A stretch of DNA of 64,000 nucleotides from NCBI GenBank assembly GCA_028289425.1, contig JANQPL010000018.1:248001-312000 (forward strand), read 5' to 3'. The translations under genes and the position numbers were made by a program. Source of the DNA: Alphaproteobacteria bacterium. GTDB taxonomy: Bacteria; Pseudomonadota; Alphaproteobacteria; JANQMY01. This document shows positions 32,967 to 44,838 of the stretch, one piece after another. Every line of letters starts with the position of its first letter. Position 1 is the stretch's first letter. A model generated the notes under the pieces. The model was not told the origin of the DNA. It was given only the letters and a program-made list of their open reading frames with translations, and did no database searches.

Positions 32967-33548
32967 GTCGTTTTCAACCGTATTCAAGGCGGCCTGCTTT
33001 AGTTGACGGGCGACGGCATCGAGCGGCGCCGTCGACTTTTCCGCGCGGCACAAGCTCAGCGCGCCTTCTAGGCCGGCGATGATGATCACTGCCATATCGG
33101 CCCCACGCTGCCGCGAGCCCAATTGATCGCTGCAATAAGCGGCGATGGATCTATGCCAGCGCCGATAGCCGGCGCGTAAATGTTCCGCGACCATCTCATT
33201 GGTCGGCGCGATATCGAGCGTGGTATTGGCAAAGAGCGAGCTTGCCTTGAAATCCGAGCGTTCCAGGAGACGTTCATAACTGCTGGCGACCCGATCAATA
33301 AAGTCCGGCAGCCCCTCGGCCTCGGCCGCAATCGTATCCAGAAGGCGCTCGGTATCTTCCGCCGCTGCATCGATCGTAGCGGCGGTCAGTTGATCTTTGC
33401 CGTCCGGAAAGTGGAAGTAGAAAGACCCTTTCGGCGCGCCGCTTTCCTTCAGAATTTCGGACAGGCCGGTGCCGTAATAGCCCTTACGGCGGAATAGGTT
33501 GGACGCCGCTGCGATAATACGCTTCTTAGTTTCACTGGGTTTTTTCAT
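32949..33548 (-). CDS. TetR/AcrR family transcriptional regulator
   Basis: 199 residues from the ATG at 33546-33548. The N-terminal HTH is clear: TKKRIIAAASNLFRRKGYYGTGLSEILKESGAPKGSFYFHFPDGKDQL. The C-terminal ligand/dimer domain resembles the LmrA/YxaF group. It diverges from the thioesterase II gene across 142 bp, so that gene is the natural candidate for control; I saw no strong palindrome there. Confidence 0.92.
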   Translation of the reverse strand: MKKPSETKKRIIAAASNLFRRKGYYGTGLSEILKESGAPKGSFYFHFPDGKDQLTAATIDAAAEDTERLLDTIAAEAEGLPDFIDRVASSYERLLERSDFKASSLFANTTLDIAPTNEMVAEHLRAGYRRWHRSIAAYCSDQLGSRQRGADMAVIIIAGLEGALSLCRAEKSTAPLDAVARQLKQAALNTVENDSGAAR

Positions 33549-33690
33549 GGAGCGCCCATATAGCGTTGCCGACCCGGCGCTTACCATAGGAATCGGCGCG
33601 GCAAATAAGCGCCCATGGTTCCATTTCCCGCCATATCACTCTATACCCGCGCTTTGTTTTTTTGCGTCAGGGAGCAGAGGAAGGGTTTCT

Positions 33691-34557
33691 ATGAGCGGTG
33701 CATTGGCCGGCTTGCTGGATTTGCTCGATTTGGAACAGATTGAAGTGAATCTGTTTCGCGGCGTCAGCCCTGAAGATAGTTGGCAGCGGGTTTATGGCGG
33801 GCAAGTTCTGGGCCAAGCGATGGTCGCCGCGACCCGAACAGTAGATGGACGGCTGGCCCATTCCCTTCACGCCTATTTTCTGCGCGCCGGCGATCCCAAG
33901 GTTCCCATCCTCTACGAAGTCGACCGCAGCCGCGATGGCCGGAGTTTTTCCGTACGGCGTGTCGTTGCCATACAGCATGGCCGTCCGATTTTTAACATGG
34001 CGGTTTCCTTCCAAGTGGAAGAGACAGGGTTCGAACATCAGTTCCCCATGCCGAAGGTACCGCCGCCGGACCAGTTGCCCACGGAACAAGAACGTCGGCA
34101 AGCGATCGCTCATCACTTACCGGAGGAATATCGAAAATGGTTTTCGCGGGAGCATCCGATTGAAACCCGCCTGATCGATCCGCCGGACCTTCTCAACCCC
34201 GAAAAATTAGCCCCCGTACAAAATGTATGGGTGCGCGCAACGGGAAAGCTACCCGACGATCAGAGCCTTCATCAATGTGTGATGGCCTATGCCTCGGACA
34301 TGACGCTCATGGACACTTGCATCTTCCCCCACGGCGTCAGTTGGCTTAACGAAAGGTTACAGACCGCAAGCCTCGACCACGCCATGTGGTTTCATCGGCC
34401 GTTTCGCGCCGATGAATGGCTTCTTTATGCACAGGATAGCCCCTCTTCTTCGGGCGCTCGCGGCCTTAACCGGGGTAGTTTCTTCACACAGGACGGCACC
34501 CTGGTGGCGTCTGTCGCGCAAGAAGGCCTTATTCGTTACCGCGACGACGAAAGTTAA
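33691..34557 (+). CDS. tesB: Acyl-CoA thioesterase II
   Basis: 288 residues from the ATG at 33691, with GAGGAAGG upstream. It is a double hot-dog protein: VYGGQVLGQAMVAA and LHAYFLRAGDPKVPILYEVDR in the first half; LHQCVMAYASDMTLMDT (catalytic Asp) and the GSFFTQDGTLVASVAQEGLIR end (Gln) in the second. It hydrolyses medium- and long-chain acyl-CoAs to free acids and CoA. Divergent from a TetR regulator. Confidence 0.93.
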   Translation: MSGALAGLLDLLDLEQIEVNLFRGVSPEDSWQRVYGGQVLGQAMVAATRTVDGRLAHSLHAYFLRAGDPKVPILYEVDRSRDGRSFSVRRVVAIQHGRPIFNMAVSFQVEETGFEHQFPMPKVPPPDQLPTEQERRQAIAHHLPEEYRKWFSREHPIETRLIDPPDLLNPEKLAPVQNVWVRATGKLPDDQSLHQCVMAYASDMTLMDTCIFPHGVSWLNERLQTASLDHAMWFHRPFRADEWLLYAQDSPSSSGARGLNRGSFFTQDGTLVASVAQEGLIRYRDDES

Positions 34558-34765: not shown

Positions 34766-36217
34766 ATGTTCATAGGACCTAACCGTTCCCAAGGAACGCA
34801 AAAGGCCGAGATGTCGCTGTACACACTCCGTTTCGAGGATAGCGGTCTCGAAGAAAAGTTCATGCTGCAAACGGCCGAACAGACGTTGTACGTCGTTCGG
34901 TATTTCCTCATGTTCGGCCTGGTGCTGTTCGTGTTGTTCGGGGTTGTCGATTATTTCGTCATCGATGACGTCGATACGCTCATGACGATCTGGGCGGTAC
35001 GCTTTCTGATCGTCGGCCCGGGAACACTCATTTTCCTCGGCCTTCCGCTTTACTACAGCAGTCTCAAAAAACACTACGAGAAGTTTCTCGCGGTCTGTCT
35101 GGTTTTGGGCGGTTTGGCGATTGTCGCCATGACGTCATTCCTGTCGTTTCCCGCCAATCACATGTATTACGCCGGCATCTCGCTGGTGACCGGCCATTAC
35201 GTCAGTTTGATCCAGTTACGGCTCATTCTGTATGCGCCCCTACTGATGATCGTCTATGTGGCCTATTTGGTCAGCGCCACTTTGCTCAACCCCATTCCGT
35301 TTTGGGCATTGGTGAACAACAGCGCTTTCCTGCTCGGCTGTTTACTTATGTCGATCTTCTCCAAATACGTGCTTGAGTATTATGTCCGCTCCGAGTTTGT
35401 GCAAAGCCAGGCGCTTGCGGACGAGAAGACCGAGGCCAACCTCCTTCGGTTGGAAGCGGAGGCGGCCAACCATGCCAAGAGTGAGTTCTTGGCGGTCATG
35501 AGCCATGAGCTGCGCACCCCGCTCAATGCCATTATCGGGTTCTCCGACATCATCAAGGACGAGATGTTCGGCAGTGTCGGCCAGGCGCAATACCGGGATT
35601 ATGCAAGCGACATTAACTCCAGCGGTCGACACCTATTGGGCATTATCAACGACATTCTGGACCTATCCAAAGCCGATGTGGGGCACTTGTCGCTGGACGA
35701 GGACGAATTCTACCTGAACGACCTGGTGGAGCAGTCGTTCCGTATGGTGATCGACAAGGCCAACGAGGAAGAAATCCAACTCAACTCACGCGTTCCCGAG
35801 ACGCAAATCCTTGTCAATGCGGACATGCGCCGCCTGAAACAGGCACTTATCAATTTGATTACGAATGCTATCAAATTCACGCCTAAGGGCGGTAAGGTCA
35901 CCGTCAGCGTAGAGATCACCAATGTGGGCACCTGCTGTATTCGGGTGGCCGACACCGGCATTGGTATCCCGAGCGATCAGATTGACGCCGTGCTCGAACC
36001 CTTCGTGCAGGTAGAAAATGCCCAAACGCGGCAGTTTGGCGGTACGGGACTTGGCCTGCCACTGGTCAAGAAACTAACCGAATTGCATGGTGGCAAGCTG
36101 ACGATCGATAGCCAGGTCGATAAGGGCACGGAAGTGTGCATCACGCTGCCGCAATCGAGGATACTCGAATGCAAATCCGGCGACATTGTTGGGAAACAGC
36201 AGGTGAGCGCCGTTTAG
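34766..36217 (+). CDS. Membrane sensor histidine kinase (PdhS/PleC-like core)
   Basis: 483 residues. An N-terminal region of about six transmembrane helices (about 40-205) resembles MASE-type sensors, followed by a short coiled coil. The HisKA box is [23 protein letters not shown] with H247, and the HATPase shows N ([16 protein letters not shown]), G1 (VADTGIGIP, near 393-401) and G2 ([13 protein letters not shown], near 425). No response regulator gene adjoins it, so its partner is elsewhere. The kinase core is most like the alphaproteobacterial PdhS/DivJ/PleC group. Confidence 0.92.
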
Positions 36218-36238: not shown

Positions 36239-37150
36239 CTACTTTGCTTTGAAGACACAGCGGCACAAGCGGATCCTGTCGCGCTTAAACCCGGCCACGG
36301 CGCGCCGCAGATAACGGTCGTAAAAGCGATAGGTATCCACGTCACTTTCGCTGACCACGGCGTTCATCTTGTTTTTCAGCTCCAAGCGCCAGTGGTTTAG
36401 TGTCCTGACATAATCCTCCGTATTGAGAAACGAGTATGTCAGGTCGAAATGGTGTTGGGAGGATTCCGTGACCTCGTCGAAATACGGCAGGTCGGACTCC
36501 GGAAACACGTCGCGCGGCACGATGCGGTCCGCCATCTCGCGGGATGCTGTGCCCCACACACCGAATTGCATCGACAAAAAGCCTTTCGGGCGAAGCCAGG
36601 CATGGCAGCGCTCGAAAAATCCTTTATAGGCGGCCACTTTTTGCTCCCGCGACATGCCGGCCTTGGCAAAGTGCTCGAACGCCTCAACGCAAGTAATGCC
36701 GTCAAATGACCCTTCCGGCACAAAGTTCTCATAGGACTGAAGATGCAGCTCCGTACCCGGAATCCGAAGTTCTGCCACAAACTCCTGCTGTTCCCGGCTG
36801 AGCGTCAATCCCACCAACTCTTTGACACCAAATTCTTGGTGCGCCCGCTGAAGCAAGGTGCCCCAGCCAAATCCGATATCAAGTAGGCGGAAGTCGCTCT
36901 GCGCCCGGACGGCTTTGAGATGATTGTCCACATTGGCAAACTGGGCTGCCTTGTAGTCTTCGTTGGCAACAGTACCTGAAATGGGATCGATGAAGGCCGC
37001 TGCGCTGTAACAGAATGCTTCCCCCAGCCACAGCCGATAAAAGTCCACACCGCGATCATAGTGATAGGAGATCGAATCCTGGGAAGCACCGGCAAAGTCC
37101 CCCTTGCCTGCCTTTTTCGGATCACCGCTGAATTCGGAAAAATGAAGCAT
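36239..37150 (-). CDS. CMAS/cyclopropane-fatty-acid-synthase-like methyltransferase
   Basis: 303 residues. HYDRGVDFYRLWLGEAFCYSAAAF and FRLLDIGFGWGTLLQRAHQEFGV (motif I) are typical of the cyclopropane synthase family, as is ITCVEAFEHF. The family methylates lipids or small acceptors with SAM. The neighbouring gene on the same strand, 64 bp upstream, encodes a PilZ-methyltransferase fusion, so the two may act in one pathway. Whether it forms a cyclopropane ring is not clear. Confidence 0.85.
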   Translation of the reverse strand: MLHFSEFSGDPKKAGKGDFAGASQDSISYHYDRGVDFYRLWLGEAFCYSAAAFIDPISGTVANEDYKAAQFANVDNHLKAVRAQSDFRLLDIGFGWGTLLQRAHQEFGVKELVGLTLSREQQEFVAELRIPGTELHLQSYENFVPEGSFDGITCVEAFEHFAKAGMSREQKVAAYKGFFERCHAWLRPKGFLSMQFGVWGTASREMADRIVPRDVFPESDLPYFDEVTESSQHHFDLTYSFLNTEDYVRTLNHWRLELKNKMNAVVSESDVDTYRFYDRYLRRAVAGFKRDRIRLCRCVFKAK

Positions 37151-37214
37151 ATAATTCGCCAGTTATCTTTGTTGATGCGAGATATGTCGGGTTGTCGTGT
37201 CCATCAGCCTGAAA

Positions 37215-38663
37215 TCAGTTTTTTCTGCGTACGCACAGAAACAAGACCTCCTCAAGTGAATCCTGAAGCAACGACACATCCGCACCGTCCAGACCGTCAG
37301 CCAGTGACCGCATCTCTTTCTGGGTTCGGTAGATCATGCTCCAGTCGGAGGTGAATTCAGACGTCCATTTGGAAATCCCACCCTCTTTTAGGTTTGCGAT
37401 CACCAAAAGCCCACCTGGCGCTACGTGTTGATATAAGTCGCCGACCAGCGATTTCGCTCTTTTCTCCTTCAGATAATCGAACAGCCCAAGTGAGTAAATC
37501 AGGTCCTGGTCAGCCATTTGCCCAAACAAATTGTCCGGCTTCATCAACTGCTTGAAGCTCGTGTTCCAGTATTTGAGCGTGACCAACCCTTTAAGGCGCT
37601 GGACCGCCGGATATGTCCGTTCATAGGCGTAGGCGAGCGTATTCTTTTCTTGATCGATGAGTGTCATGTCGATCGGTTTCGAAAAGGCGTCGGCGGCCAG
37701 CAAGTTTTGTATCTCCTGCGCTGTCCCGCAGGCAAGGTTCGCCATTCTGAAAGGACGCTCGTCCGAGAAGGTCTGCAATTCCGAAAGGATGATGTCTTGC
37801 TGTTTTTCGAGCCGCGTGCGCACGCACCGCATTGGTTCCAATGCCAAACGGTGAACAAGTTGGGCATAAGGTCCCTCACCTTCTCGCCGCCACTCATAAC
37901 AATAGTCCATCACCTTGTAATCGCCCGGGTAGCCCAGCGGCTTTTCATATGCACGCCGTTGCAGGGGCGATACCAGCGTTTCGGTAGTGATAAGTGCTTC
38001 GGTGAATGTCTTGGCCCAGCGAAACTCATCCGTGCTGGACATGGTCTTGGCCAGAGCATTGCCCTCTTCGCAAAAGGCCCGCCACTGAGGTACCGCTTTT
38101 TCTTCGCACGCCTGCAAGAACCCTTCGACCTGATCACTGGTCGGATTGGATTGGCGGACGAAGTCGTCAATCTCGCGCCGGTTTTCCCGGAGCAGATAAG
38201 TCAGATCGCTGATGAAGGTGCGATACTCGGCCGAAACCGATTGCCGAATTTTTTGAATGCAGAGCTTCTCCCGGGACGCGGCGGAGACTTGCAGCATTTT
38301 GGTTTTGATGGCCGGCAGATCGAGGTAACTCTCCGGCAGGCTGACCCCCAACTTTGCGCCCCGGTCAGTTGCTTCAACGCGCGCTATCCGTGCCGTGCCG
38401 CTGAACAGGGTGCTGTCGCGAAAAGCCAAGGTGAGTGGGAACTCTTGGTCCGGTGCGAAATCAGCGGTTCGGTCGGCATTGACCTCTAGGGCGAGGCCGC
38501 TCATGCTTAAATCGATGAGCTGAACCTTCTCCTGGCGTAAGCGCACTTCGGGTAGCCGCTCGCCAAAAAAAGAGCGCGCAGGAAAGCGTTCGGCGCGAAA
38601 AAAAATCTCGCGTCCTTCCGCGCCCGTCAATTCGTGATAGTTCCGCGCCATAAGCGCCGCCAC
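37215..38663 (-). CDS. PilZ domain fused to a SAM-dependent methyltransferase
   Basis: 482 residues from a GTG at 38661-38663; an ATG four codons in is an alternative. Residues about 15-115 look like a PilZ domain (FFGERLPEVRLRQEKVQLIDLSMSG... GTARIARVEATDRGAKLGVSL), the c-di-GMP receptor fold. A helical middle region has YEKPLGYPGDYKVMDYCYEW, and the methyltransferase motif I is ANLACGTAQEIQNLLA (about 307). The C-terminal domain resembles proteins annotated for synthesis of the 3-hydroxypalmitate methyl ester signal (PhcB-like). The specific product here is a guess. Confidence 0.8.
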   Translation of the reverse strand: MAALMARNYHELTGAEGREIFFRAERFPARSFFGERLPEVRLRQEKVQLIDLSMSGLALEVNADRTADFAPDQEFPLTLAFRDSTLFSGTARIARVEATDRGAKLGVSLPESYLDLPAIKTKMLQVSAASREKLCIQKIRQSVSAEYRTFISDLTYLLRENRREIDDFVRQSNPTSDQVEGFLQACEEKAVPQWRAFCEEGNALAKTMSSTDEFRWAKTFTEALITTETLVSPLQRRAYEKPLGYPGDYKVMDYCYEWRREGEGPYAQLVHRLALEPMRCVRTRLEKQQDIILSELQTFSDERPFRMANLACGTAQEIQNLLAADAFSKPIDMTLIDQEKNTLAYAYERTYPAVQRLKGLVTLKYWNTSFKQLMKPDNLFGQMADQDLIYSLGLFDYLKEKRAKSLVGDLYQHVAPGGLLVIANLKEGGISKWTSEFTSDWSMIYRTQKEMRSLADGLDGADVSLLQDSLEEVLFLCVRRKN

Positions 38664-39341
38664 TCACCGTTAACCAAATTTTAAGCTTTCGCCAAAAGAT
38701 AGCTTAATTTTTTGTTAATTATATTCAAATCATGCACGACAAATGTTTCGTTAACACTCAGTCGACAGTGGTCGCGGCTCTACATTTCTCATATTAATCT
38801 TGGTTAATTTCAGTTTTGCAAAGATTACTTTTGAAGCTCGATACGCAACCTGTTTCCACCTTCATTTTATACTTTGAAGAAGAGTATAAGCCTTGTGAAT
38901 TACTTAACAACCAAAGATAGACATCCTCACCCAATATACCCTCACACCTGGAATTCGGTGAAAAATGGCGCTCCGGCCACACTATACCCTGGCCAGCGCT
39001 GGTAACCGCAAAAGTAGTTTCCGTAGTGTAGGGATTATCGATAAGTGTTTAAACGCAGGCAACACCGACATGTGACGGCTGAGCAACCGGTGGACCACAA
39101 GATATGCGACGCGGGAATGCGGTGCGTTGTAAATTGCTGCGTTTAAACTTGGGGCTATTCGACGAATACACAAAAAGCCGCTCAATCACTAGAAGGTGGT
39201 GGATTCAAACGCCAAATCCGCAGAGTTTTTCTCAAAACAACAAAATGAGATCTTTTGGCGGCGCGCGCCTGTCAGGCGTTGAATGGGCACAAGATTCGAA
39301 AATACAATAAGCCCGCCATCAGAAGTTGTGAGGGGACACCC
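38664..39341. other. Long AT-rich intergenic region
   Basis: 678 bp between the divergent PilZ-methyltransferase and RND transporter genes. The first 300 bp are clearly AT-rich, with many short A and T runs. A perfect palindrome CCAGCGCTGG lies at 38990-38999. No frame with family resemblance or a ribosome binding site was found. GAGGGG at its end is the binding site for the transporter GTG start. Confidence 0.4.
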
Positions 39342-41690
39342 GTGGCGCAAGAACAAAATAAGATGCACAGCCAGCATCGCTTCGGGCAACTTTTTGTCGC
39401 GGTGACCTTTCCGCGGCTAACCCTCTTGGTCTGCCTTCTGGCCACATTGGTCATTGCGGCAGGCGCCGGACGGCTGACCATTTCATCGGATACGCGGCGC
39501 TTCGGGTCGGAGAATACGGACCTTATCCGACTGGAAAAATTCGAATCCGTCTTCACACAGAACAATAACGTTTTTATCGCCCTGGCCGCGCCCGATGGCG
39601 ACGTATTTACGATGGACCGCATCCAGACGATCCATCAGTTGACGGAGAATGCATGGAAATTGCCCCATGCAATCCGAGTCGATTCAATCACCAACTATCA
39701 ATTCCTGGACGGCCAGGGCGATCTCGTTGAAATACAGGCACTAAGCCCCTTTGCCTATGACCCGAACCGGGCTGACATGGACCCAGAGGAACGGCTTCGG
39801 CAATTTCGAGACCGTGTCGCTGAAGAAGATCTGTTGCAGAACTGGCTGGTCTCGGCGGACGGAACGACGGCGGCTTTGAACATCAATTTTCAAATCCCCA
39901 CGGATGCAACACTGGAAGTCGCCGAGATTATGGCTGCCGTGCGCGAGCTTGTCGCTGATATGCAAGCTCAGGAGAGCGGCACCCTTGACGCCTATGTCAC
40001 GGGCAATATCGCCTTGATGGCCTTGTTTGCCGAAGCATCGGAACGGGACACCGCCTCGATTGTGCCGCTCTGCTTCATGTTGATCGGCGTCATGGTGATC
40101 ATTTTCTTTTGGTTTTCGCCGGCGACCCTTTTCATTCTCACCTCGGTTCTCATGGCCACGCTTATCGCGGTCGGCTTTGCAGGCTATAGCGGCCGGGTTA
40201 TCGACCCCAACTTTGCGACGGTGCCGGTCATCGTCATGATCCTGGCACTTGCCAGCGGCGTTCACTTTGTCATCGGTACACAGAAATATATCGACAAGGG
40301 GCAAAATGGACCGGACGCGGTTGCTTCGGCGATCGACGAAAATTTTTTCCCGATTTTTCTCACAGCCCTAACAACGTCGATCGGTTTCTTTGTTCTCAAT
40401 TTTGCCGATGCACCGTCGTTTCATGCGTTGGCGAACATCGTGACGGTTGGGGTGGGCGCGGGCTTCGTTTTGTGCTTCACCTGGATTGCGGCCGGACTAG
40501 CCCTCTTTCCGCCGAAGAAATCCAAGAAGCCCGTTGAGGCGCAGGCCTTCTTAGCCGGGCTTGTAGACTTTCTGGAACGGAACGCGCGCCAAGTATTGTT
40601 CGCGTCGGTGATTGTAACTCTGGTCATTTTGATGGGCGTCTCGCGCCTTATTCTGGATGCGGATTTTGTACGCTATTTCGATGAACGCTACGAGTACCGG
40701 CAGGCATCGGACTTTGTTGAAGAACGGCTCACAGGCCTTAACCTGATCGAGTTTGAATTCGACAGCGGCAAAGCCAATGGCATCAATGCACCGGACTATA
40801 TGGCCAATCTCGATCGCTTTACCCAGTGGCTGAAATCGCAGCAGGACGTGGCCCATGTGAGTTCCATGTCCGAAACGTTGAAACTGATCTATCGGAATAT
40901 GGTGGCGGCTGACGATCGATCAGGCCTCCTTCCGGCGGAAAGGGAAGAGATCGCCCAATTCCTCCTGTTGTACGAAATATCGTTGCCCGAAGGTCTCGAC
41001 CTTAAAGACCGCATTAGTTCGGATAAATCCTCCACGCGGGTGACCGCCGTGCTCAGAGGTGCGACGTCCAAAGACATCACTGAACTCGATCAGCAGGCCA
41101 CACAATGGCTCAAGGACAATGCGCCAGAATCCGCCTGGACCTCGGGCGTGTCGATCAATGTGGTCTTCGCCTATTCGGTGATCAAAAATGTCCGTCCCAT
41201 GATCTTTGCCACTTTCCTGGCCCTGTTTATCATTTCATTGATCATTCTGGCCTCGTTGCGCAGCGCGAAGCTGGGCGCCATGGGAATGCTCACCAACATG
41301 CTGCCCATTGCGATCGGCTTTGGCTTTTGGGGATATTTGATCGGCATTGTGGACCTGGTCGCCGCCGCGGTGCCAGCCATAACACTGGGACTGATCGTCG
41401 ATGACACCATCCACTTCCTTGTGAAGTATCAGCGGGCGCGCAGAGAGTTGGGATTGCCCACCATTGATGCCGTCAAATACGCCATGAATCTCGTGGGCAA
41501 GGCAATCATCATCACCACCGTATCCCTGATGATCGGCTTCTTGGTGCTGACCACATCGGGCTTCCAGTTCAACCGTAGTCTGGGGCTGTTCACGTCGATG
41601 GTGATCACCGGGGCATTACTTGTCGATCTGCTCATTCTACCCGCCCTGTTGCTGTGGCTTGACAAGGACAAAGCCGCACGGAGGAGCTGA
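39342..41690 (+). CDS. RND superfamily (MMPL-type) transporter
   Basis: 782 residues from the GTG at 39342 (AGGGG 7 bases upstream); the frame is open further upstream but unsupported. Two repeats of one helix, a large periplasmic loop and five helices are evident. The first cluster begins IVPLCFMLIGVMVIIFFWF and the second NVRPMIFATFLALFIISL, with AITLGLIVDDTIHFLVKYQRARR as the conserved helix. Members move lipids, hopanoids or hydrophobic compounds. A P450 gene converges on it and an outer-membrane protein gene lies beyond, so a lipid or terpenoid substrate is plausible. Confidence 0.9.
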   Translation: MAQEQNKMHSQHRFGQLFVAVTFPRLTLLVCLLATLVIAAGAGRLTISSDTRRFGSENTDLIRLEKFESVFTQNNNVFIALAAPDGDVFTMDRIQTIHQLTENAWKLPHAIRVDSITNYQFLDGQGDLVEIQALSPFAYDPNRADMDPEERLRQFRDRVAEEDLLQNWLVSADGTTAALNINFQIPTDATLEVAEIMAAVRELVADMQAQESGTLDAYVTGNIALMALFAEASERDTASIVPLCFMLIGVMVIIFFWFSPATLFILTSVLMATLIAVGFAGYSGRVIDPNFATVPVIVMILALASGVHFVIGTQKYIDKGQNGPDAVASAIDENFFPIFLTALTTSIGFFVLNFADAPSFHALANIVTVGVGAGFVLCFTWIAAGLALFPPKKSKKPVEAQAFLAGLVDFLERNARQVLFASVIVTLVILMGVSRLILDADFVRYFDERYEYRQASDFVEERLTGLNLIEFEFDSGKANGINAPDYMANLDRFTQWLKSQQDVAHVSSMSETLKLIYRNMVAADDRSGLLPAEREEIAQFLLLYEISLPEGLDLKDRISSDKSSTRVTAVLRGATSKDITELDQQATQWLKDNAPESAWTSGVSINVVFAYSVIKNVRPMIFATFLALFIISLIILASLRSAKLGAMGMLTNMLPIAIGFGFWGYLIGIVDLVAAAVPAITLGLIVDDTIHFLVKYQRARRELGLPTIDAVKYAMNLVGKAIIITTVSLMIGFLVLTTSGFQFNRSLGLFTSMVITGALLVDLLILPALLLWLDKDKAARRS

Positions 41691-41699
41691 GAATGAGCC

Positions 41700-43127
41700 T
41701 TATTCGGCGGCCTTTTGCGCGGCCGCACGCGGCTTAATAACGATCGGCAACGGATTTTTGATCCGCAAGGAAATGCGCAGCTGAAACTCCACCGGATCGT
41801 CATCCACGCGATAAACCTCGAACTCTCGCATCATCATGGCAATCGCCAAGGTGGTTTCCATCATGGCGAAGGACGAGCCGATGCAGCCTCGCGGCCCGAT
41901 GGAAAACGGCATGTAAGCGAAACGGTGCCGGTCCTTTTTGTTTTCGGGCGAGAAACGATAGGGATCGAAAACATCCGGATTGTCCCAAAGCTTTTCATGC
42001 CGATGCAGTACATATTGAGAGACAGCGATGGTCGTGCCCTTTTTGATCTTCTGTCCACAGATCACATCATCCTTCGCCGCCACGCGAATAACGATGGATG
42101 ACGGCGGATAGAGCCGCATGGATTCTTCGAGAACCATGCGGGTGAACTTCAGATTCTTGATGTCGCCGGCAACGGGGGTTCTGTCGCCCAGAACCTCCCT
42201 CGCCTCTTCGCGGATCTTTTCCGCCGCCCAGGGATATTCACACAACAAATACATGGTCATGGTCATCGCATTGGCGGTGGTCTCGAACCCAGCCGACAAC
42301 AAGGTCGCGATGGTGTCCTTGAGCTGTTCCTCCGTATAGCCTTTGCCGGTTTGCTCATCCCGCGCGTGAATGAGGCTGGTCAGCAAATCGCTGGGCATGG
42401 GTGATTGGGCCCGGCGCGCTTTTGAAATGCGGTCCGTTTCGCCTTTGAGATAATCGATGGACCACTTTATTTGCCGGAACTTCGGCGCCGGGATCCAGGT
42501 GGGCAGGTTGAGGAAATCAAAAATATCCACCTGCCCGATCCGGTCCACATAGGCGGACACAGCCTGTCCAAGCGCCTTACGATCAACTTTGATGCCCGAA
42601 AAGAGCGCCTGACAGAGGATCTCGATGATGAGCTCCATCATTTCCGAGCGGGCCTCATAGGTCACGTTGCCATTGTCCGCCCGCCAGACGGCAAACCTGT
42701 CCTCGATGCCTGCGATCATGGCCGGCACCAGCTCGGTGAGCTGTTCCGCCCGGAAGGACGGATTGGCCGCATGCCGCTGCATGCGCCAGGATTCCCCTTC
42801 CGAGGTGAGCATGCCCTCCCCCAAGGCAGGCTTCAGGAAACGCTGCTGCAAGGGCGATTTGGGATAGTCTTCCACATGGTCCATCAACACGTGGCGCAGA
42901 CCGTCCGGATCGAACAAAAACAGGATGTTCGCGATCGGGGTTTCCTTGAGCACCATGGGCTCGCGAAAGCCCTCAATCGGCATGATGGACAGCAATGAGT
43001 CCTGAATGCCCCGAAAAAGTTTTATCGGGGACCGCCAGTTGTCTTCAGGTTCATACCGCGCCGGGATCTTCTGACGCTGCTTTTCTTCTTCGGTTCGATC
43101 GTCGACTAACACATCCGCTATGCTCAT
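41700..43127 (-). CDS. Cytochrome P450
   Basis: 475 residues from the ATG at 43125-43127 with GGAGCA upstream. The I-helix motif is SAGFETTANAM, the K-helix ExxR is LEESMRLYPPSS, and the heme loop is FSIGPRGCIGSSFAM with the ligand Cys. The length and the YPPSS pattern fit the CYP4/CYP102-like fatty-acid hydroxylase side of the family. Its 3' end lies 9 bp from the end of the transporter gene (convergent). Redox partners are not adjacent. Confidence 0.93.
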   Translation of the reverse strand: MSIADVLVDDRTEEEKQRQKIPARYEPEDNWRSPIKLFRGIQDSLLSIMPIEGFREPMVLKETPIANILFLFDPDGLRHVLMDHVEDYPKSPLQQRFLKPALGEGMLTSEGESWRMQRHAANPSFRAEQLTELVPAMIAGIEDRFAVWRADNGNVTYEARSEMMELIIEILCQALFSGIKVDRKALGQAVSAYVDRIGQVDIFDFLNLPTWIPAPKFRQIKWSIDYLKGETDRISKARRAQSPMPSDLLTSLIHARDEQTGKGYTEEQLKDTIATLLSAGFETTANAMTMTMYLLCEYPWAAEKIREEAREVLGDRTPVAGDIKNLKFTRMVLEESMRLYPPSSIVIRVAAKDDVICGQKIKKGTTIAVSQYVLHRHEKLWDNPDVFDPYRFSPENKKDRHRFAYMPFSIGPRGCIGSSFAMMETTLAIAMMMREFEVYRVDDDPVEFQLRISLRIKNPLPIVIKPRAAAQKAAE

Positions 43128-43283
43128 TGGATTGCTCCATGAAACCAATAAACAAGTTCACAGCCCATTCTATCGCCTGAGATGGGCGTTAGGGGCCCGT
43201 GCGACAACTCGGCGCTGCGCAAATTCGTCCCGATACGCACGAGCGCGATCAGGTTAAGTGGAGTCCGGTTAACCGTCCGATCG

Positions 43284-43381: not shown

Positions 43382-44605
43382 CTAGATGTATTTCGTTAGG
43401 CGCAGGGTCACGAAATCATCTTCGGCAAGTGCCGTTTCGAACTCTCTGGGGTCGAAATTCACAAAAAACCGGGCCTCCAGCTCGACTTTCCAGTCATCAC
43501 CGATCCTCCGTTCCGCTTCGGCCGAAACGAAGGTAGATCCGTCTTCGGCATCCACAATAGCACCCACCAGAACCGCCGTGTCCTGAGCATCGTTTAGCGT
43601 CAGCCGCGCGCCGGCAAAAACGTCATTGTTCTGAAAGATCGGCGGTGCACGCGCCTCGTCCCGTCCGTCATAAAGATATTCCGCCAACAGACCCACATCC
43701 GCGGCCGTTCCGAAGACCTGGTACAGCGTGTGCTCCAGGCCCGCCACCACGGCCGCAAAGCGCTTTCCTTGGCCTGCTCGAGTGAGCGCTTCCACCTTCC
43801 AGAGCGTTGCATCCTGGGTGAACTGGAGATCCGCGCTGGACTGATCGATTTGATCGTAAACCGGCAGCAACACCACATTTGTGGCGCTCACAAAGACCGG
43901 CGTGAAACGTGGCTCCCGGCTGGTTCCATGGAAATGGGCTAGGCCGATGTCAAAGGCCCCGACACTTGCCGACCAGCGGCCCGCAAAACTTTGGGTCCAT
44001 TGCTCGGCCGGCGATTCAAACACCGATTGGTCAGCGATGATCGGCACCGGGCCCCGAAGGCGTGCCGGACCATCGGGAAACGTGCGCTCACGGAAATAGG
44101 GCAGATAGAACAAGTCGAGCGTCCCCACCCCAATCGACAAGCCGATATTCACCATGGGTTGGCCAAGCTTGTCCTCGCCATCAATGTCTTCGACAAAATC
44201 GTCCTGGTTGATGATGTCGACCAGGTGCCTCGACTCGGTGACGCCCCAAAACACTTTGCTGATGCCCGCCACGATGGACCAGCTGCCGCCATCATGCAGG
44301 ATGCTTGCTTCGCGAATGTCTATGTGGGTGCGCTCATCGTCATCCAGATCGGCCCGGGCAAACACTTCGACGGCGAGCGTGGTTCGGCTGTCTTCCCACT
44401 CGTAGAGGAATTCAGGTTTCAAAAAAGCCGAAGGCGAGAATGTGGTGTCGTCTTGGTCGCTGAAGGCCGGATCATTGGGAAAGGTTCTAAGTTCGGCGCC
44501 CACCTCAACCGAATAGTCGAGCCGCGCATGTGCCGCCCCGAGCCCACCCGCCAGAACCGCGAGGAGCGTGAAGACCGCCCAAAACCGCTTCCCAAATCCG
44601 GTCAT
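43382..44605 (-). CDS. Predicted outer-membrane beta-barrel protein
   Basis: 407 residues from the ATG at 44603-44605; a GTG at 44620 is possible. The signal peptide ends near GAAHA. The mature chain alternates polar and hydrophobic residues throughout, with GGSWSIVAGISKVFWGVTESRHLVDIINQ as a notable block, and ends EDDFVTLRLTKYI. The pattern resembles DUF1302-like channel proteins that pair with RND/MMPL transporters. It lies beyond the P450 gene on the same strand. Confidence 0.7.
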   Translation of the reverse strand: MTGFGKRFWAVFTLLAVLAGGLGAAHARLDYSVEVGAELRTFPNDPAFSDQDDTTFSPSAFLKPEFLYEWEDSRTTLAVEVFARADLDDDERTHIDIREASILHDGGSWSIVAGISKVFWGVTESRHLVDIINQDDFVEDIDGEDKLGQPMVNIGLSIGVGTLDLFYLPYFRERTFPDGPARLRGPVPIIADQSVFESPAEQWTQSFAGRWSASVGAFDIGLAHFHGTSREPRFTPVFVSATNVVLLPVYDQIDQSSADLQFTQDATLWKVEALTRAGQGKRFAAVVAGLEHTLYQVFGTAADVGLLAEYLYDGRDEARAPPIFQNNDVFAGARLTLNDAQDTAVLVGAIVDAEDGSTFVSAEAERRIGDDWKVELEARFFVNFDPREFETALAEDDFVTLRLTKYI

Positions 44606-44838
44606 CCCTGAACCGTGCACCCTTCGTCAGCGTGTCAATTAGATCCGTCATGCTACGCAATTGAATATCAGGGGCCGGGAAAAGGCGCAATCGGACAGAC
44701 ATCTTCGTGCCCGCAATAGGGGTGCCACCATTTTCATATAACATCATCAAAATGTTTGTTAGAAGCCTATAAAAAATATAAAAATGGCAGGTAATTAAAG
44801 CGACTTATGAAGTTGTTGTTTGATACGAGGGACCTACG

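Follow-up and report, generated by a model that had tools for sequence, protein, structure and literature searches.

The 64-kb window analysed here (positions 248,001-312,000 of the forward strand of contig JANQPL010000018.1, Alphaproteobacteria bacterium, GCA_028289425.1) contains a gene encoding a PilZ domain fused to a methyltransferase (MT), together with the neighboring genes and the protein features listed below, in positions of the window.

37215..38663 (-): PilZ-methyltransferase fusion, 482 aa; an alternative start is possible at the ATG of codon 5
38280..38639 (-): PilZ domain region, residues 9-128, barrel about 39-108 (Pfam PF07238, model, fold matches)
38586..38597 (-): RxxR motif (R23, R26), replacing the canonical RxxxR (alignment of 81)
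38496..38513 (-): [D/N]xSxxG motif (D51, S53, G56) (alignment of 81)
37944..38318 (-): helical linker, residues 116-240 (predicted secondary structure)
37215..37943 (-): class I SAM-dependent methyltransferase domain, residues 241-482, with KPLGYPGD at its start
34766..36217 (+): sensor histidine kinase, candidate receptor, convergent, 483 aa (HisKA, HATPase_c)
34766..35491 (+): unnamed membrane sensor domain of the kinase, residues 1-242
36239..37150 (-): CMAS-like methyltransferase, 303 aa, downstream of the fusion (PF02353)
39255..41690 (+): MMPL/HAE3-type RND transporter, divergent from the fusion; its TTG start is uncertain

The fusion itself, first proposed in a sequence-only reading of this DNA, is real. 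Its PilZ domain is recognized by Pfam (23.7 bits, cut-off 22.5) and is followed by an MT domain, and the arrangement is not a product of chance, as 8 of 59 relatives (own genome included) have a match, full-length in 7 of these 8, and the AlphaFold2 model of the protein has a pLDDT of 88.7. Among 385 sampled genomes, 35 match the fusion, 32 of them over its full length, and records carrying it include Parvibaculum sedimenti, Tepidicaulis marinus and Sneathiella species. The PilZ-MT fusion is an alphaproteobacterial family.

The MT domain falls under the Pfam cut-off for Methyltransf_12 (21.7 bits, cut-off 30). The sequence-only reading had likened this C-terminal half to PhcB, and the likeness holds as homology: the fusion aligns with seven MTs assigned to the PhcB type by operon order, R22 and, for one member, the genus Paraburkholderia, a set that includes no named Ralstonia or Cupriavidus PhcB (hhalign E 6.7e-39, 394 columns). 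At 23% identity over that alignment the substrate can differ. The motif KPLGYPGD, near-invariant among 81 aligned proteins of which most were fetched with the pattern KP[LD]GYPGD, corresponds to KP[LM]GYAGD in the PhcB type. The gene order MT-histidine kinase-(receiver+kinase)-receiver is found in six of six other genomes of the PhcB-type set; the published phcBSRQ operon has the same order, and PhcR is described with a C-terminal kinase. Of the published landmark residues, PhcB R22 equals R22 of the Paraburkholderia graminis MT, and PhcS L161 and PhcQ R154 are not matched by number in that species (F at position 161 of the kinase, V at position 154 of the second regulator). The product of PhcB is a methyl ester, and in Cupriavidus metallidurans CH34 the signal may itself be a 3-OH PAME variant (PMC2864759).

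Phylogeny of the MTs (41 rows) recovered the PhcB type as one clade with support of 100/99, and left the deep order unsettled, with PilZ-MTs not recovered as a single clade; the program's output carries a warning about long branches that meet, and no order of PilZ gain or loss is claimed from this tree. In terms of structure, the solved fold closest to the fusion model is 3ocj, a protein without stated function, which counts against a Phc-like role, and the better fold matches include many small-molecule MTs. Sequence searches of solved structures gave best E values of 0.021 for the fusion profile and 0.18 for the PhcB-type profile, a single-sequence search with one PilZ-less relative (L016) matched the MT 3bus (E 2.6e-4), and the BFVD matches listed are mostly generic MTs.

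The kinase gene, whose product contains HisKA and HATPase_c domains by Pfam, ends 21 bp from the pair formed by the fusion and the CMAS-like gene. It had been noticed from the sequence as converging on that pair, and it is the true conserved partner of the fusion, as a kinase of this family lies adjacent and convergent at 76 of 80 loci. At two loci in Parvibaculum the kinase is missing although about 10 kb is available for it, which again counts against a Phc-like role. Among the 59 relatives, the sensor domain occurs in all 8 genomes that carry the MT and in 2 of the 51 that do not, and it has a single match in the own genome; searches of Pfam with 28 members gave nothing better than E 0.011. 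This domain is homologous to the sensor of kinases in the PhcS position (E 1.5e-10; the reversed profile gave 0.3, and none of eight unrelated profiles did better than 0.14), and judged by this homology a PhcS-type sensor kinase stands beside the MT. The locus shares with the phcBSRQ quorum-sensing operon of Ralstonia and Cupriavidus both a homologous MT and a homologous sensor domain on the neighboring kinase, but differs in its alphaproteobacterial host, in a PilZ domain that retains ligand residues, in a kinase gene that is convergent rather than co-operonic and in having no adjoining receiver gene. A search of the 64-kb window for receiver genes corresponding to phcR and phcQ found no match at E 1e-5, a receiver gene lies in the flanks of 6 of 80 other fusion loci, and the C-terminal part of PhcQ had no match in the own genome, in a search without a positive control; these results, too, count against a Phc-like role.

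The CMAS-like gene, which the sequence-only reading had paired with the fusion, does not hold that position. Its product carries a CMAS domain (PF02353, 155 bits, cut-off 27) and scores 108.5 bits against a curated equivalog cut-off of 400 (NCBIfam PRK11705); as compared with the CMAS/cyclopropane fatty acid synthase family, its N-terminus is shorter than that of the 444-aa frame that scores best for CMAS in the genome. A relative with 47.9% identity is found at the corresponding position in the sister species, and no match was found in 79 fetched loci outside the genus, so that the gene is genus-specific among fetched loci and was rejected as a defining partner. Loss of a catalytic cysteine was likewise dropped as a feature of this protein, since in the CFA synthase of the same genome the corresponding position is occupied by serine. 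A CFA-family gene upstream of the P. graminis MT had no match beside the other six PhcB-type MTs, and we therefore claim no link. On the other side of the fusion, the MMPL transporter, which has sub-cut-off similarity to HpnN and whose family is found upstream of the fusion at 33 of 80 loci, may be a signal exporter. An acyl-CoA thioesterase is also encoded nearby in the window.

Taken as a group, the CMAS-like gene, the HpnN-like transporter and the thioesterase would fit an enzyme that methylates phospholipid, hopanoid or another lipid of the envelope under c-di-GMP control, with the kinase monitoring the state of the membrane and no signal secreted, and sequence does not reveal MT specificity. 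We nevertheless regard this explanation as rather unlikely, since the signal synthase PhcB is the nearest relative of studied function with comparable gene surroundings, and since it is the sensor kinase, and not the CMAS-like gene or the transporter, that is conserved beside the fusion.

The PilZ part was folded separately, as searches of the PDB with the whole fusion model gave MT matches. Its model (pLDDT 89.6) has PilZ domains, many of them with c-di-GMP, as its nearest solved folds, among them VCA0042 (1yln; Z 10.9, 106 aligned, rmsd 6.6) and YcgR (5y6f; Z 9.3, 82 aligned, rmsd 2.6), as compared with Z 7.1 at the first clearly unrelated row. By sequence, the PilZ profile reached a best E of 0.35 against solved structures, and the Pfam match is weak across the family (E 0.01 or better in 57 of 81 members), which counts against the Phc-like reading. 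Barrel fold and Pfam profile together place the domain in the PilZ family. Of the ligand motifs expected for c-di-GMP binding, [D/N]xSxxG stands intact in the alignment (D or N in 81 of 81 proteins, S53 in 80, G56 in 81), and the canonical RxxxR does not: all 81 proteins have instead an invariant RxxR (R23 and R26), one residue shorter, which could mean that binding of c-di-GMP is altered or gone. The window protein also contains R26-xxx-R30, with arginine at position 30 in just 22 of the 81. As far as the alignment can tell, the ligand-site residues are conserved and the loss that would have spoken against c-di-GMP control is not seen, with the caveat of RxxR in place of RxxxR.

The shortened motif would also suit a PilZ domain that has become a structural or docking module and no longer binds c-di-GMP, as apparently in PhcB, where the N-terminus of the PhcB type aligns with the second half of PilZ and lacks the ligand motifs; the locus would then encode an ordinary Phc-like synthase and kinase. 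This appears unlikely to us, given that the near-complete conservation of the five ligand positions is not obviously needed for docking and that the solved structures nearest to the model are those of PilZ domains, many of which contain c-di-GMP.

A PilZ protein is known to act on a methyltransferase in Pseudomonas, where MapZ acts on CheR1. The fusion would resemble this system in having PilZ act on an MT, and the fold matches of the PilZ model include MapZ with c-di-GMP bound, but MapZ and CheR1 are two separate proteins and CheR1 is a chemotaxis methyltransferase. It is very improbable that the fusion modifies a protein partner, such as the kinase or a chemotaxis-like receptor, instead of a small molecule: the CheR profile matches 14 of 81 members at E 0.01 or better (best 4.1e-5) and one Deinococcus relative is annotated as CheR, but for the window protein that profile gives no match at E 0.1, small-molecule MTs are numerous among its better fold matches, and PhcB forms a methyl ester.

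GGDEF domains were found in all 8 of the MT-bearing genomes among the 59 relatives. Related MTs without PilZ are paired with GGDEF-EAL proteins in one family, probably rhizobial, where all 10 genomes that carry the MT encode opposite it a GGDEF-EAL protein bearing a related sensor. The sensor of the GGDEF-EAL type matches that of the fusion kinase with E 6.7e-7 (reversed control 0.035), and its match to the PhcS type is weak (23.6%, E 8.6e-4). The pair on plasmid pRle248e of Rhizobium leguminosarum bv. viciae 248 shares the MT family, a related sensor domain and the pairing of the genes with the fusion locus, but its output is c-di-GMP turnover rather than a kinase, its MT has no PilZ domain and its genes are divergent. 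No function for such a pair was found among the entries listed by a search, and 7 of 27 sampled relatives have neither the sensor nor a GGDEF-EAL partner, which counts against a Phc-like interpretation.

A PhcB-type enzyme with a PilZ domain, usually adjoining one membrane sensor, suggests a quorum-sensing pair tuned by c-di-GMP. We see an even chance that the fusion and the kinase form a Phc-like synthase/receptor pair, in which the synthase probably makes a methyl ester and is acted on by c-di-GMP, and the facing kinase is the receptor. The fusion would transfer a methyl group from S-adenosylmethionine to a hydrophobic acid; the likeliest acceptor is the carboxyl group of a fatty acid, with or without a 3-hydroxy group, and, by homology with PhcB, the product would be a diffusible methyl ester. 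The kinase would sense this ester through the unnamed membrane sensor domain and phosphorylate an unlinked response regulator, which might be of the DivK/PleD type. Binding of c-di-GMP to PilZ via RxxR and [D/N]xSxxG would alter MT activity, so that the lifestyle state of the cell would set the amount of signal. The transporter may carry the product out, and in the genus of the window the CMAS-like enzyme may modify the acyl chain further.

It is possible, though we hold it doubtful, that the PhcB family arose from c-di-GMP-gated PilZ-MTs. The alphaproteobacterial synthase would still be a c-di-GMP receptor itself, its rhizobial relatives would work with a receptor that makes or breaks down c-di-GMP as its output, and decay of the PilZ domain would have cost Ralstonia and Cupriavidus the link, all within a widespread superfamily of fatty-acid-ester quorum sensing wired to c-di-GMP at both making and sensing of the signal. 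If the proposed pair is correct, Phc-type fatty-acid-ester signalling would reach beyond Betaproteobacteria, a signal synthase would be directly controlled by a second messenger, and kinases and c-di-GMP enzymes would have in common an undescribed membrane sensor domain. The named alphaproteobacteria that carry these genes, Parvibaculum sedimenti, Tepidicaulis marinus and Sneathiella, and Rhizobium for the GGDEF-EAL form, would allow this to be tested.

The PilZ-methyltransferase (MT) fusion, the CMAS-like gene and the converging kinase are open reading frames located exactly where the sequence-only reading had placed them. The genes of the window that concern us are:

33499-34557 (+), TesB-type acyl-CoA thioesterase II, directly upstream of the kinase gene
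34766-36217 (+), HisKA/HATPase_c kinase, its end 21 bp from the fusion/CMAS-like pair
36239-37150 (-), CMAS-family protein (155 bits)
37215-38663 (-), PilZ-MT fusion: Pfam PilZ at 23.7 bits (cut-off 22.5), then MT matches, all under their cut-offs
39255-41690 (+), MMPL transporter, divergent from the fusion
41700-43148 (-), cytochrome P450, beside the MMPL transporter gene
43382-44620 (-), 412-aa protein with zero Pfam and NCBIfam matches at E 0.1

The fusion matches 8 of 59 relatives (own genome counted), seven of them with full-length fusions and one, G058, with an MT lacking PilZ. An even sample of the class gives matches in 35 of 385 genomes, of which 32 are full-length; the remaining three are G058 and two genomes with the match in pieces (G740, G688). 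Named genomes were scanned with the pattern KP[LD]GYPGD and the best 80 of 178 relatives were taken; these best 80 records carry alphaproteobacterial or plain Proteobacteria/Pseudomonadota labels, except for one Deltaproteobacteria. In this last locus (L097, 1758-4412, minus strand) the kinase next to the fusion spans 884 aa in one frame and includes a receiver of its own. In G058 (L153, 6379-9217), a kinase of the fusion-type family adjoins an MT that clusters with other PilZ-less MTs and is 26% identical to the window MT, as though the receptor had been retained and the synthase exchanged.

We aligned 81 proteins: the window fusion, 77 of the 80 loci (L078, L091 and L092, truncated or split, were left out) and L013-L015. 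The PilZ motifs that the sequence-only reading had proposed to look for are RxxxR and DxSxxG. The second is retained as [D/N]xSxxG, with D or N at position 51 in 81/81 proteins and S53 in 80/81; in the first, RxxR stands in place of RxxxR in all 81. Residues Y9, G14, R23, R26, G56 and R95 are identical throughout, as are D440, W441 and R446 close to the C-terminus. KPLGYPGD is near-invariant, but carries little weight, as 77 rows were retrieved by that very pattern. The Pfam PilZ model recognises 57 of the 81 at E 0.01 or better.

An AlphaFold2 model built on this alignment (pLDDT 88.7) consists of a barrel (39-108), helices up to about residue 240 and an MT fold thereafter. The MT part resembles many MTs, the top row being 3ocj (Z 19.8, 250 aligned, rmsd 3.2), which carries no stated function. 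When the PilZ part is modelled by itself (pLDDT 89.6), 29 of the best 30 VIA-align rows are either PilZ proteins or cellulose-synthase chains that contain a PilZ domain, many with c-di-GMP, and the 30th is an uncharacterized Legionella protein (4q63). Z scores fall from 10.9 to 7.5 within these 30 rows, and unrelated rows begin at 7.1. VCA0042 (1yln; Z 10.9, 106 aligned, rmsd 6.6) and YcgR (5y6f; Z 9.3, 82 aligned, rmsd 2.6) are among the matches; in Foldseek the top match, and the sole one at 0.001, is 4xrn, a PilZ domain with c-di-GMP (E 5.1e-4). Within the 5.4 Mb own genome this is the one PilZ domain (Pfam PilZ model, E 0.001), alongside 7 GGDEF and 5 EAL domains; the seven relatives with an MT have 1 to 7 PilZ and 3 to 15 GGDEF matches each.

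The conserved partner of the fusion is the kinase, rather than the CMAS-like gene with which the fusion had been paired. The CMAS-like gene turned up solely in the window and a sister species (47.9% identical), with zero matches in the other 79 loci (flanks up to 10 kb). The kinase, whose convergence on the pair had been pointed out, adjoins the fusion convergently in 76 of 80 loci (74 of these within 150 bp; cut by a contig end in 5 of the 76), and its sensor, the N-terminal membrane domain, occurs at E 1e-10 or better in 8/8 of the 59 relatives' genomes with an MT versus 2/51 without; the sampled loci are related, and these linkage and co-occurrence counts are not independent. Elsewhere, the kinase overlaps the fusion by about 142 bp (L035), the locus stops 1,082 bp past the MT (L025), or no kinase is present despite about 10 kb of flank (L059, L061). 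The own genome has a single copy of the sensor, and a draft of the same genus (G001) has kinase and MT on separate contigs. Fusion-side kinases form one family (mean column identity 48%, seven members), and Pfam gives nothing better than E 0.011 for the sensor in 28 members. An MMPL transporter lies upstream of the fusion in 33 of 80 loci (31 on the same strand, 2 divergent); 40 have none although 1.5 kb is available, 5 have less flank and 2 have it farther away. The 30 gene clusters most widely shared among the loci include just three genes of the window: the fusion, the kinase and MMPL.

In Ralstonia, passages of three papers describe phcBSRQ as encoding PhcB (a methyltransferase whose product is methyl 3-hydroxymyristate or -palmitate), PhcS (a sensor kinase), PhcR and PhcQ (PMC11960443, PMC6989110, PMC10653808). 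Searching plasmids with the fusion recovered an MT of Paraburkholderia graminis that has a kinase and then two response regulators behind it. By the numbering in those passages, this MT shares arginine 22 with PhcB and its kinase has the phospho-histidine at 233 versus 230 in PhcS, and the landmarks PhcQ R154 and PhcS L161 do not match by number. The MT profile matches 28 of 398 Pseudomonadota genomes (even sample, own genome counted), and we examined the surroundings of all 27 others: six show the published Phc order, MT-kinase-(receiver+kinase)-receiver, and seven have neither that order nor a GGDEF-EAL neighbour. P. graminis and the six operon-order cases form our PhcB-type set (n=7), which includes no named Ralstonia sequence. 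The likeness of the MT half to PhcB held up against this set (394 columns, 23% identity, E 6.7e-39, profile-profile), and the kinase sensor likewise matches the PhcS-type sensor (155 columns, probability 96.9%, E 1.5e-10). As a control, reversing the PhcS-type profile gave E 0.3 with the kinase sensor. Eight unrelated profiles taken from these loci, five of them resembling membrane proteins by eye, gave E 0.14 to 0.89 with the kinase sensor and 0.12 to 0.84 with the PhcS-type sensor. In one genome (G417; L137, 2784-6203) a PhcB-type MT lies within a single open frame of 1,139 aa, a candidate fusion whose roughly 670 additional N-terminal residues have no Pfam hit at E 0.1.

The alignment of fusion and PhcB-type proteins begins within the PilZ barrel (window 77, PhcB-type 53). 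Extended backward by eye and ungapped, it places PhcB-type N27-L-Q-x-x-S32 over window D51-L-S-x-x-G56 and leaves PhcB-type proteins no space for RxxR. The N-termini alone also match (51%, E 1.5e-4, 45 columns; reversed control E 0.86). These comparisons are suggestive of a PilZ remnant in PhcB.

Related MTs also occur beside GGDEF-EAL proteins. In 10/10 genomes of one alphaproteobacterial family (f62) among the 27, a PilZ-less MT is divergent from a GGDEF-EAL protein, with at most 180 bp between the two stop-to-stop frames. The kinase sensor profile recognises the N-terminus of this GGDEF-EAL protein (E 1.1e-3 to 1.9e-10, filters off). The remaining f62 genomes of the 398 have no MT match. 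This family is probably rhizobial, because named Rhizobium plasmids carry the same pair. The partner lies beside the MT in Rhizobium leguminosarum bv. viciae 248, R. etli CFN 42 and Roseateles sp. XES5 (record unverified), and is absent at the MT of Aureimonas sp. AU20, Deinococcus actinosclerus and Pantoea dispersa. Across these probable and named rhizobia and Roseateles, the arrangement is seen at L143, L145, L147, L148, L198-L203, L193, L194 and L196. In G195 the adjacent GGDEF-EAL protein has no sensor match, and in G111, G115 and G198 it lies 344-1,512 bp from the MT, with PAS in both that were Pfam-searched. The sensors of the GGDEF-EAL proteins and of the kinase match over 174 columns (92%, E 6.7e-7, profile-profile; reversed control 0.035). 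Of 2,317 ORFs in the MT-relative loci, searches with the sensor picked up no others at E 1 or better, and the best of 58 ORFs near GGDEF and EAL genes of the own genome reached E 0.21.

A plasmid of the cyanobacterium Pseudanabaena sp. PCC 7367 (L106, 1270-7764) carries an MT, a convergent kinase with the same sensor and a response regulator. The MT clusters with one alphaproteobacterial PilZ-MT in the tree (96/88), the genes adjoin a Tn3 transposase and a recombinase, and the plasmid is typed conjugative; the set may have been transferred horizontally. Two Enterobacter ludwigii plasmids (H13, H14) hold a related MT stretch within a gene annotated as type I polyketide synthase.

The architecture, the motif conservation, the homology of both halves to the phcBSRQ-type pair, and the linkage and co-occurrence of fusion and kinase are direct observations. 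Mechanistically, the fusion's MT would yield a methyl-ester product that the kinase would sense and the MMPL protein would export, and c-di-GMP would bind the PilZ domain and alter MT activity. The TesB-type thioesterase (33499-34557) could be a source of free fatty acids. The receiver profile has no match within the 64 kb window and matches in the flanks of 6 of 80 loci, L097 with its receiver-bearing kinase being one of the six. Because the kinase's phospho-acceptor region presumably resembles PleC/DivJ, our guess for its response regulator is DivK/PleD; NCBIfam scores several kinase families about equally for this kinase. By eye, a GGDEF protein encoded in the own genome (L002) reads as receiver-receiver-GGDEF, an order like that of PleD.

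Unlike in the Phc system, phcR and phcQ are not beside the window fusion, and for this reason we do not class the pair as a member of that system, although it likely works like it. In the portions of open-licence full text searched, we noticed no paper joining a PilZ domain, PhcB and a methyltransferase and no description of the fusion; in the two Ralstonia papers that name both PhcB and PilZ, the passages use PilZ as a pilus gene name or mention it in general terms. Within that literature, the PilZ-MT form is not described. The window pair is real and conserved, and is best read as a variant of Phc-type signalling in which the synthase carries a domain of the c-di-GMP-receptor type.
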